Of a stretch of 64,000 nt of DNA, positions 38,328 through 39,528 are shown in pieces. This DNA is from Winogradskyella tangerina. Lineage in GTDB: Bacteria > Bacteroidota > Bacteroidia > Flavobacteriales > Flavobacteriaceae. The position numbers and the translations under genes are program-made. The first letter of the stretch is position 1. Each line of letters opens with the position of its first letter. The stretch covers positions 186,001 through 250,000 of the forward strand of contig NZ_QERF01000004.1 in the NCBI RefSeq assembly GCF_003260205.1. Direction: 5' to 3'. The notes under the pieces were generated by a model. The model was given only the letters and a program-made list of their open reading frames with translations. It was not told the origin of the DNA and ran no database searches.

Positions 38328-38395
38328 GTTTAAATGTCGTAAAGAAAAGAGTCTCTAAAGTTAGAAAAATGTTGTTGGTTTCTAAAGAAAAACTC

Positions 38396-38403
38396 TATAT
38401 TTG
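38396..38403 (+). promoter_or_regulatory. promoter of the tRNA-Pro/GIY-YIG array
   Basis: TATATTTG matches TAnnTTTG exactly. A TTGTTGG sequence 18 bases upstream (38372-38378) supplies a -33-like TTG at suitable spacing. It lies 31 bases before the first tRNA-like copy. No other promoter is obvious before the intact tRNA, so the whole array is probably transcribed from here. Confidence 0.6.
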
Positions 38404-38434
38404 CAGTCCGAAATTTGATTTTAACAAATCAATA

Positions 38435-38511
38435 CGGGGTGTAGCGTAGCCCGGTTATCGCGCCGCGTTTGGGACGCGGAGGTCGTCACGCTGAAGGCGT
38501 GACCACCCCCA
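38435..38511 (+). other. tRNA-Pro-like sequence with replaced T arm (copy 1)
   Basis: The first 51 bases equal those of the intact tRNA-Pro (acceptor 5' strand, D arm, anticodon arm with UGG, variable loop). Instead of the T arm, a 7-bp stem with a five-base loop (GTCACGC-TGAAG-GCGTGAC) follows, then CACCCCC. The latter pairs with six of the seven acceptor positions, leaving a C-C mismatch at the end. The TTCGA T loop is absent, so it is unlikely to be a working tRNA. It could still fold as a tRNA-like structure. Confidence 0.75.
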
Positions 38512-38524
38512 CTAAAAAGAATTA

Positions 38525-38767
38525 ATGTATATAGTTTATATACTTTTTAGTAAAAAAAGTTCTAGATATTATGTAGGTCAGACCTCTGATATCGAAAAGA
38601 GATTGAAAAGACATAACCAAGGTAGAGTTCCTTCAACCAAAATTGGTATACCTTGGGAAATTGTTTTGCAAATTGAAGTTGAGAGTAGATCTGAAGCAGT
38701 TCAGCTAGAATCGAAAATCAAGAAGCGAGGAGCAAAACGATATATAGATAACTATTTCGGGGTGTAG
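38525..38767 (+). CDS. GIY-YIG nuclease family protein (copy 1)
   Basis: An 80-residue single-domain GIY-YIG protein, the size of the small UPF0213/YhbQ-like group. The motif appears as YIVYIL ... RYYVGQTSDIEKRLKRHNQG: VYI in place of GIY, YVG in place of YIG, then the catalytic Arg helix. A Glu helix follows (AVQLESKIKKRGAKRYI). The fold cuts DNA by one-metal hydrolysis. The start ATG lies 14 bases after the tRNA-like sequence. The last three codons and the TAG stop lie inside the second tRNA-like copy. The downstream copy at 38848 is identical. Confidence 0.85.
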   Translation: MYIVYILFSKKSSRYYVGQTSDIEKRLKRHNQGRVPSTKIGIPWEIVLQIEVESRSEAVQLESKIKKRGAKRYIDNYFGV

Positions 38768-38834
38768 CGTAGCCCGGTTATCGCGCCGCGTTTGGGACGC
38801 GGAGGTCGTCACGCTGAAGGCGTGACCACCCCCA
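38758..38834 (+). other. tRNA-Pro-like sequence with replaced T arm (copy 2)
   Basis: This is identical to copy 1 because it lies in the second 323-bp unit. It begins 10 bases before the end of the first GIY-YIG gene and contains that gene's TAG stop at tRNA positions 8-10. It has the 5' half of tRNA-Pro(UGG), the substitute hairpin at 38808-38826 and the CACCCCC end. It lacks the T loop and is probably not a functional tRNA. Confidence 0.75.
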
Positions 38835-38847
38835 CTAAAAAGAATTA

Positions 38848-39090
38848 ATGTATATAGTTTATATACTTTTTAGTAAAAAAAGTTCTAGATATTATGTAGG
38901 TCAGACCTCTGATATCGAAAAGAGATTGAAAAGACATAACCAAGGTAGAGTTCCTTCAACCAAAATTGGTATACCTTGGGAAATTGTTTTGCAAATTGAA
39001 GTTGAGAGTAGATCTGAAGCAGTTCAGCTAGAATCGAAAATCAAGAAGCGAGGAGCAAAACGATATATAGATAACTATTTCGGGGTGTAG
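38848..39090 (+). CDS. GIY-YIG nuclease family protein (copy 2)
   Basis: Identical in DNA and protein to the gene at 38525-38767. It is an 80-residue GIY-YIG endonuclease-like domain with the YYVGQ core, Arg helix and Glu helix. Its last three codons and TAG stop (39088-39090) lie inside the intact tRNA-Pro gene, at tRNA positions 8-10. RNase P cleavage at the tRNA 5' end would therefore remove the stop codon from the message. Perfect identity of the two copies points to a very recent duplication or ongoing gene conversion. Confidence 0.85.
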   Translation: MYIVYILFSKKSSRYYVGQTSDIEKRLKRHNQGRVPSTKIGIPWEIVLQIEVESRSEAVQLESKIKKRGAKRYIDNYFGV

Positions 39091-39155
39091 CGTAGCCCGG
39101 TTATCGCGCCGCGTTTGGGACGCGGAGGTCGCAGGTTCGAATCCTGCCACCCCGA
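39081..39155 (+). tRNA. tRNA-Pro (anticodon UGG)
   Basis: A complete cloverleaf. The acceptor stem is CGGGGTG / CACCCCG with discriminator A. The D arm is GCG...CGC with a GG-containing loop. The anticodon arm is CCGCG-TTTGGGA-CGCGG (anticodon TGG, proline), the variable loop is AGGTC and the T arm is GCAGG-TTCGAAT-CCTGC. CCA is not encoded. It is the only copy in the array with a true T arm. The first ten bases double as the end of the second GIY-YIG gene. Confidence 0.95.
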
Positions 39156-39156
39156 C

Positions 39157-39472
39157 AAAAAGATGAGAAACCTTGATGATGATAATCGTTGAGGTTTTTT
39201 TTTTGAAGTATTTGCAATGGTATTGCGATGAGATCGTCAAGCTGAAGGCGTGACCACCCCGACAAAAAGATGAGAAACCTTGATGATGATATTCGTTGAG
39301 GTTTTTTTGAAGTATTTGCGATGGTACTGAGATGAGGTCGTCACGCTAAAAGCGTGACCACCCCGACAAAAATATGAGAAACCTTAATGATGCCAATCGT
39401 TGAGGTTTTTTTTGAAGTATTTGCGATGGTACTGAGATGAGGTCGTCACGCTAAAGGCGTGACCACCCCGAC
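39157..39472 (+). repeat. three ~105-bp tandem repeats after tRNA-Pro
   Basis: Units cover 39157-39263, 39264-39367 and 39368-39472, with a few differences between them. Each starts AAAAA(G/T)ATGAG, has a 12-13-bp hairpin with a T run, then GAAGTATTTGC(A/G)ATGGTA. Each ends in a copy of the hairpin GTC(A)ACGCT(G/A)AAGGCGTGAC plus CCACCCCGAC, the 3' acceptor strand of tRNA-Pro. The same hairpin and end occur in the two upstream tRNA-like copies. No gene is visible in this stretch. Confidence 0.88.
39168..39204 (+). terminator. tRNA-Pro terminator (first of three)
   Basis: AAACCTTGATGAT-GATA-ATCGTTGAGGTTT forms a 13-bp stem with three G-U pairs, followed by a run of ten T (counting those in the stem). 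Repeated versions lie at about 39274-39308 and 39377-39412. In the third, one G-U pair has become A-U and the stem is kept. Confidence 0.75.
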
Positions 39473-39486
39473 CAAGAAAAATTTAG

Positions 39487-39528
39487 GCTCTTATAAGATG
39501 ATTAGTTTCTTATGAGAGCTTTTTTATT
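39487..39528 (+). terminator. terminator between the tRNA array and the araC-type gene
   Basis: GCTCTTATAAG / CTTATGAGAGC forms an 11-bp stem with one mismatch, followed by a T-rich tract on the plus strand. It overlaps the last codons of the convergent AraC-type gene (39502-40362). Confidence 0.75.

Follow-up and report, generated by a model that had tools for sequence, protein, structure and literature searches.

GIY-YIG nuclease cassettes inserted in tRNA genes of Winogradskyella tangerina and other Bacteroidota look like an undescribed family of selfish DNA

Introduction

Phages T4 and T6 encode SegB, a homing endonuclease of the GIY-YIG type whose free-standing gene lies in the tRNA region (PMC13096335, PMC2988022). 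The T6 enzyme cleaves inside tRNA genes, and the tandem amplification of tRNA-Tyr and segB depends on it and on its catalytic residues, the amplified unit being joined via short homology, tRNA 5' end to segB 3' end (PMC13096335). Mobile open reading frames (ORFs) of fungal mitochondria bring a replacement C-terminus into the atp6, atp9, cox2 or nad3 gene that they enter, which is thereby restored while its native end persists as a remnant (PMC3630166). Here we analyse a 64,000-nucleotide stretch of the 3.52 Mb genome of Winogradskyella tangerina (the window), in which two tandem units, each with a gene for an 80-amino-acid (aa) GIY-YIG nuclease, occupy a tRNA-Pro(UGG) gene. SegB is said to have been studied by Brok-Volchanskaya in 2008.

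The window nuclease shares its fold with the UPF0213/SLX1 GIY-YIG nucleases, which are not known as tRNA-linked mobile genes. Integrative elements that target tRNA genes restore the tRNA 3' end at the junction. They resemble our element in that a carried copy keeps the target tRNA whole, while the unit described here has no integrase, measures ~320 bp, occurs in two polarities (5' and 3' types, defined below) and has a junction that differs by tRNA. RAYTs are HUH/Y1 enzymes. The REP/RAYT systems are alike in tying small palindromes to a nuclease gene (PMC8266576, PMC6006769), and differ in that our enzyme is of the GIY-YIG type and our palindrome lies within a tRNA copy. The likeness to SegB covers the GIY-YIG domain, tandem tRNA-nuclease amplification and the homology between tRNA 5' and nuclease 3' ends, and would extend to tRNA-gene cutting and the promoted inheritance of the tRNA region, both described for SegB (PMC13096335). 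SegB, however, lies between phage tRNA genes while the window gene lies inside a cellular tRNA gene, and the replacement tRNA part, the palindromic decoy, the specialisation on a tRNA species and the 80-aa protein set the present element apart. The fungal mobile ORFs also combine an endonuclease gene with a copy of the displaced gene end, but they concern organelle protein genes and a copied C-terminus, and the excerpt of PMC3630166 mentions neither palindromes nor tRNA.

Results

Structure of the tRNA-Pro(UGG) locus

Repeat comparison revealed three copies of bases 1-51 of tRNA-Pro(UGG) (38435-38485, 38758-38808 and 39081-39131), 100% identical and with a spacing of 323 + 323 nucleotides (nt). 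The two 323-bp units (38435-39080) do not differ at a single base, and each carries, in order, tRNA-Pro(UGG) bases 1-51, a hairpin replacing the T arm, CCACCCC and the 80-aa GIY-YIG gene, which bears out the two tandem units with an acceptor-like end described in an earlier note on this DNA. In both decoys the T arm CAGGTTCGAATCCTG is swapped for the hairpin TCACGCTGAAGGCGTGA, followed by CCACCCC. The two nuclease ORFs are identical; their TAG stop codon is formed by bases 8-10 of the next tRNA copy and their last codons also lie inside the tRNA. The features of the locus are as follows.

38372..38403, + strand: promoter-like site TTG ... TATATTTG (pattern search; like the stretch before the intact tRNA in empty sites)
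38435..38757, + strand: unit 1, 323 bp, from the decoy tRNA-Pro through the nuclease gene to where the next tRNA copy starts (repeat comparison)
38435..38485, + strand: decoy 1, tRNA-Pro(UGG) bases 1-51 (repeat family)
38486..38502, + strand: palindrome TCACGCTGAAGGCGTGA at the place of the T arm (sequence, junction comparison)
38503..38509, + strand: acceptor-like 3' strand of decoy 1, CCACCCC (sequence, RNA fold)
38525..38767, + strand: GIY-YIG nuclease 1, 80 aa, with its stop codon inside the tRNA copy that follows (ORF, Pfam, alignment, model, fold search)
38758..39080, + strand: unit 2, same as unit 1, with decoy 38758-38808, palindrome 38809-38825 and CCACCCC 38826-38832 (repeat comparison)
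38848..39090, + strand: GIY-YIG nuclease 2, 80 aa, same as nuclease 1, ending at bases 8-10 of the intact tRNA (ORF)
39081..39156, + strand: intact tRNA-Pro(UGG) (ARAGORN; Rfam RF00005, 67.8 bits for 39081-39155)
39168..39203, + strand: intrinsic-terminator-like hairpin and T run 3' of the tRNA (read by eye from the sequence)
39177..39489, + strand: three nuclease-less 3' decoys with palindromes at 39236-39254, 39340-39358 and 39445-39463 and tRNA 3' end CCACCCCGAC (repeat comparison)

All three copies were called as tRNA-Pro(UGG) by ARAGORN, and the third alone passed the Rfam tRNA threshold; the first two are therefore degenerate. The decoy RNA folds into a cloverleaf-like structure with a longer T-side hairpin (-37.6 kcal/mol, z -2.5). 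The decoy is interrupted by the palindrome and the intact copy beside the element retains its sequence. The site at 38372..38403, promoter-like by its match to a consensus, would transcribe the whole array and the tRNA. The region 3' of the intact tRNA holds three ~104-nt repeats, each with a similar hairpin, the tRNA 3' end and a terminator-like stretch and with no nuclease; W. wandonensis (L039) has one nuclease-less repeat of the same kind after its intact tRNA.

The repeats are too long and too alike to have arisen by chance, and their recurrence in other genomes likewise excludes it. A group I intron or intein was ruled out, because no Rfam intron was found in the window and the nuclease sits between tRNA copies. 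The 80-aa gene is the only one in the unit, to which the look for an integrase was confined, and the unit thus does not present itself as a tRNA-integrating island.

Empty and occupied sites in the genus

The earlier note proposed looking in close relatives for tRNA-Pro sites without the nuclease, and these were found. tRNA-Pro(UGG) was present in 60 of the 60 same-genus genomes searched, mostly twice. Among the 30 loci listed, a PQQ-type dehydrogenase gene lies directly upstream in 11 loci besides that of the window, and all 11 carry a like promoter and one intact tRNA, with the nuclease absent; one of them (L110) has ~60 nt extra between promoter and tRNA. Since these syntenic loci have promoter and intact tRNA without a nuclease, the window element is an insertion. 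The PQQ locus of W. luteola (L112) is occupied, and inserted and empty alleles at one site are what a homing gene would show.

The second tRNA-Pro(UGG) locus of the window genome (L236) lies in a Ser-Pro-Arg tRNA cluster; upstream of its intact tRNA there is a remnant of a decoy that lacks a nuclease. The corresponding locus, read from the sequence, is empty in W. wandonensis (L242) and in genome G030 (L240). The earlier suggestion that the element protects its host from losing the tRNA does not hold as a matter of life or death here, the host having this second gene. The window genome also contains a second tandem pair (L003/L044, G000:C11:318.9-319.5k), of the 3' type, 3' of tRNA-Leu(GAG).

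The nuclease and its distribution

The Pfam GIY-YIG domain (PF01541) was found in the nuclease with 60.2 bits against a cut-off of 22.6. The structure model (pLDDT 95.7) resembled UPF0213 (1zg2) and Slx1 in a fold search, and I-TevI more weakly. Alignment of 45 proteins revealed that Y5, Y16, G18, R26 and E62 are invariant, from which it follows that the catalytic type is kept by selection; Y5, Y16, R26 and E62 are the conserved Tyr, Tyr, Arg and Glu that have catalytic roles in this superfamily. Domain, core fold and conserved residues all place the protein in the GIY-YIG superfamily. The segment after E62 varies with the partner tRNA (KKRGAKRY with Pro, LKSAAGRRW with Ala and Arg, KKMKSKTYI with Asn), and this segment behind the invariant Glu could be what reads the DNA. 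Neither a phage collection (50,697 records) nor a plasmid collection (72,556 records) gave a tblastn match at 1e-5, which rules out phage or plasmid cargo as represented there.

Nuclease matches (E 1e-6) were found in 114 of 299 Flavobacteriaceae genomes and 100 of 236 genera. From those listed, 107 loci were taken by similarity alone, several per genome in places; a listed match at a contig end (G280:C18) was left out. A same-strand tRNA lies within 400 nt in 95/107 loci and within 100 nt in 84/107, while for CSD, an unrelated small gene used as control, a tRNA on either strand lies within 400 nt in 0/30 loci. The partners include tRNAs for Pro, Arg, Ala, Met, Asn, Asp, Leu, Val, His, Phe and Gly, and Thr in a phylum sample; the first tally of partners omits L111, the same as L039, and L156, which lies within L162. 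A phylum-wide profile search gave matches at E 1e-8 in 189/296 genomes, and 27 of the 30 loci listed adjoin a tRNA, the window's own included; tRNA-linked members had served to build the profile, which biases this sample. Of the 40 stretches taken first, those of a side group (L060, L061, L064-L072, L074-L076) have no tRNA nearby, and in G011 a 7-copy array (L038) lies ~1.5 kb from the closest detected tRNA.

At least two nuclease ORFs, whole or broken, occur in 42/164 loci. The single-contig genomes G034 and G225 carry six 427-bp units beside tRNA-Asn (L037) and three 337-bp units beside tRNA-Arg (L170). Contigs of draft genomes stop inside or near elements L042, L045, L046, L040 and L133, so short-read assemblies may break or collapse at such elements.

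Target fidelity and movement between loci

A tree was built from 155 nucleases, 9 of the 164 loci being left out since they have no ORF of 60-150 aa; it has few columns and many weak forks. The partner amino-acid label changes 21 times over 119 rows (200 shuffles: minimum 68, mean 77), with the ambiguous labels of L132 and L047 set aside, and the nuclease lineages mostly hold to one tRNA species across genera. Polarity changes 12 times (at least 24 in shuffles), so that one lineage can take either. In the 5' type the nuclease lies 5' of the intact tRNA with a tRNA 5' fragment upstream; the 3' type is the mirror image. The cassette polarity given in the earlier note is that of the window, to which the mirror-image type has to be added.

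Three genomes (G329, G341 and G258) carry related elements at two tRNA-Pro(UGG) loci each. The homology of a pair spans from the left tRNA copy (plus up to ~10 leader bases; in G341 from about base 21) to the right tRNA 3' end, and the flanks beyond the aligned cassette are unrelated in all three pairs; one partner of the G258 pair stops at a contig end, where the alignment cannot be followed to the tRNA 3' end. In G341 the left half of L134 is native and intact over 51 bases, whereas that of L160 is degenerate and the L160 nuclease is broken; such a contrast would arise if newly inserted elements made use of the 5' half already in place. These pairs show spread to homologous sites with unrelated flanks, as in homing genes, and are what a cassette moving via tRNA homology predicts. 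In the DNA tree of Pro(UGG) nucleases the loci are mixed (3 changes), though not decisively.

A tRNA and a passenger gene that were merely duplicated in tandem on the spot, with no mobility and with palindromes as decay products, would account for identical units in tandem and for the nuclease-less repeats downstream. We consider it very improbable, since relatives occur in 100 of the 236 genera searched and most fetched loci lie at tRNAs of many species; the empty sites, the pairs with tRNA-bounded homology and the junction hairpins described below also speak against mere duplication.

Junctions, tRNA fragments and palindromes

As the earlier note anticipated, other tRNA genes are split likewise and GIY-YIG genes end inside them: the nuclease gene stops exactly at tRNA bases 8-10 in 39 and at bases 21-23 in 14 of the 94 loci called 5'-type. 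Two of the 94 (L049 and L053) are 3'-type, because their ARAGORN 'tRNA-SeC' calls are really decoys; they were Val-labelled in the trees, counted as 5' in the polarity test, left out of the junction table and re-assigned in the fragment count. An exact fragment of the partner tRNA of at least 12 nt was found on the far side in 92/127 loci (74/91 5'-type, 18/36 3'-type), compared with 0/127 on the reverse strand and 5/127 with the tRNA of another isotype.

The junction table has 91 rows from 125 loci, those without a recognisable tRNA end being excluded. Departure from the tRNA occurs after base 14 in 6/6 5'-type rows of Asn, after base 22 in 9/15 rows of Arg(TCG) and after base 24 in 2/3 rows of Leu(CAA). 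The 17 rows of Pro(UGG) depart after base 51 (5), 9 (5), 11 (2), 28 (2) and three other positions. Insertion just after base 51, as first proposed, is one of the junctions used, but others include 9, 11, 14, 22, 24 and 28, and the crossover cannot be fixed to one base because it lies inside a direct repeat.

The tRNA is left before base 34 by 72/77 5'-type fragments, some of which resume past the palindrome. This bears on the idea of a device of host or phage origin that counters tRNA-cutting toxins with additional or decoy tRNA, for which the amplification of SegB in phage T6, where it raises tRNA-Tyr dosage against Septu (PMC13096335), is the model. The window decoy does retain its anticodon arm. 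We find this explanation scarcely credible, however, because the 2 units of the window and the 6 of L037 are each accompanied by a single intact tRNA, so that arrays do not raise the dose of whole tRNA, and the last window copy alone reaches the Rfam tRNA threshold.

A hairpin with a stem of at least 6 begins at the departure point in 53 of the 77 loci scored (of 91 5'-type loci), against 4% of shuffles preserving base composition only. Several Arg loci pick up the tRNA again at base 23, right behind the palindrome, which is therefore a clean insertion there. The window palindrome was not found elsewhere in its own genome with up to 2 mismatches allowed, and was rejected as a dispersed repeat of that genome. 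Some palindromes of other lineages are dispersed, with 4-63 copies of TCCCGATNNNNATCGGGA in 7/8 genomes. The exact 20-mer CCTGCCTGCCGGCAGGCAGG occurs once each in G121 and G307, inside the element, so that a palindrome can travel with it; G011 has a single copy that is not at any examined element. Palindromes may also seed repeats elsewhere.

Four GIY-YIG genes without a tRNA link (L065, L071, L072 and L076), near one another in the tree, lie amid palindrome-like repeats and are possibly a REP-like system with a GIY-YIG enzyme. At L005/L072 (G000:C10:243.5k) a longer GIY-YIG gene lies within a FabF-like gene (named by eye), ~65 bp of whose start is duplicated on either side, and the nuclease is flanked by opposed palindrome-like arms of the GTCATGCTGAGCTTGTCGAAG type; the L005 nuclease belongs to another GIY-YIG group than the window's.

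Dispersed palindromes and tRNA-free relatives of this kind, together with UPF0213 (1zg2) and Slx1 as the nearest folds, would fit a structure-specific nuclease that acts on hairpins, as RAYTs act on REPs, with units inserted by fork processing and the tRNA serving as a structured landing site only. We judge this unlikely: clade predicts tRNA species and junctions are isotype-typical, both of which point to sequence recognition; the window palindrome has no copy elsewhere in its genome, and the 20-mer of G121 and G307 is likewise confined to the element.

Discussion

Comparison of occupied and empty loci shows, at the level of sequence, a cassette inserted in a tRNA gene together with a copy of the displaced tRNA part, owing to which one intact tRNA remains. 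By the same comparison, the other fragment stays in most loci as a decoy, usually palindrome-broken or remodelled at an isotype-typical site, units have been amplified in tandem, and related copies stand at different loci of one tRNA species with homology essentially bounded by the tRNA. We infer from this arrangement, and by analogy with SegB, cleavage of the intact tRNA gene and repair from the element-bearing copy. In our assessment this is probably a selfish chromosomal element, akin to homing endonuclease genes and parasitic on tRNA genes, which it enters by recombination with a spare tRNA part of its own, a palindrome-marked decoy being left behind.

In such a mechanism the GIY-YIG protein would cut the intact tRNA gene at or near the palindrome position, in the window lineage in the T stem at base 51/52. 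The break would be repaired off the element-bearing copy via the short tRNA homology on either side, leaving the old 5' half joined to the palindrome and the old 3' half to a new 5' half. Arrays, deletions and fossils without a nuclease would then result from recombination among neighbouring repeats. The decoy is probably protected from cutting by its palindrome, which would also shorten a direct repeat that would otherwise delete the element. Alternatively the palindrome may be an operator, as with I-TevI, which binds its own operator (PMC2988022).

Several observations weigh against this interpretation. The intact tRNA beside the element should also be cut if the target were the tRNA sequence alone, and the second tRNA-Pro locus of the window genome has only a decoy remnant without a nuclease; because the intact neighbour is tolerated and the second locus is nuclease-free, the nuclease must act weakly, be under regulation or require something beyond the tRNA. 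Several junctions within the Pro(UGG) lineage are loose for a single cut site. No fragment of at least 9 nt was found in 21/127 loci, only half of the 3'-type loci (18/36) have one of at least 12 nt, and 7 of the 107 loci have no nearby tRNA (5 others lie at contig edges). A single clade of the PQQ-locus elements is not quite rejected (approximately unbiased test, AU p 0.053), and since this value is not decisive, movement between loci rests mainly on the within-genome pairs.

We would give an even chance to a wider proposal, a Bacteroidota-wide selfish class in which each lineage is locked to one tRNA species and rebuilds the tRNA it breaks, the palindrome being an immunity mark or operator that lets the nuclease bind and not cut its own locus. 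Among the matches listed in the open full-text literature, at title and abstract level and with subscription papers and preprints outside, GIY-YIG genes inside bacterial tRNA genes were not described, which is not proof of absence; the tRNA-linked GIY-YIG elements look like an undescribed family of selfish DNA.

Such elements could account for many of the small genes annotated in Bacteroidota as 'GIY-YIG nuclease family', for tRNA remnants there, for assembly breaks at these loci and for the origin of some palindromic repeats. If the proteins are sequence-specific, they would be unusually small (~80 residues) site-specific nucleases. The family turns an anecdote of T-even phages into a natural experiment with many tRNA species, two polarities, empty sites, fossils and live arrays. 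Being essential, conserved and shared across species, tRNA genes are an ideal target, with built-in tolerance, for an element that breaks and rebuilds them.
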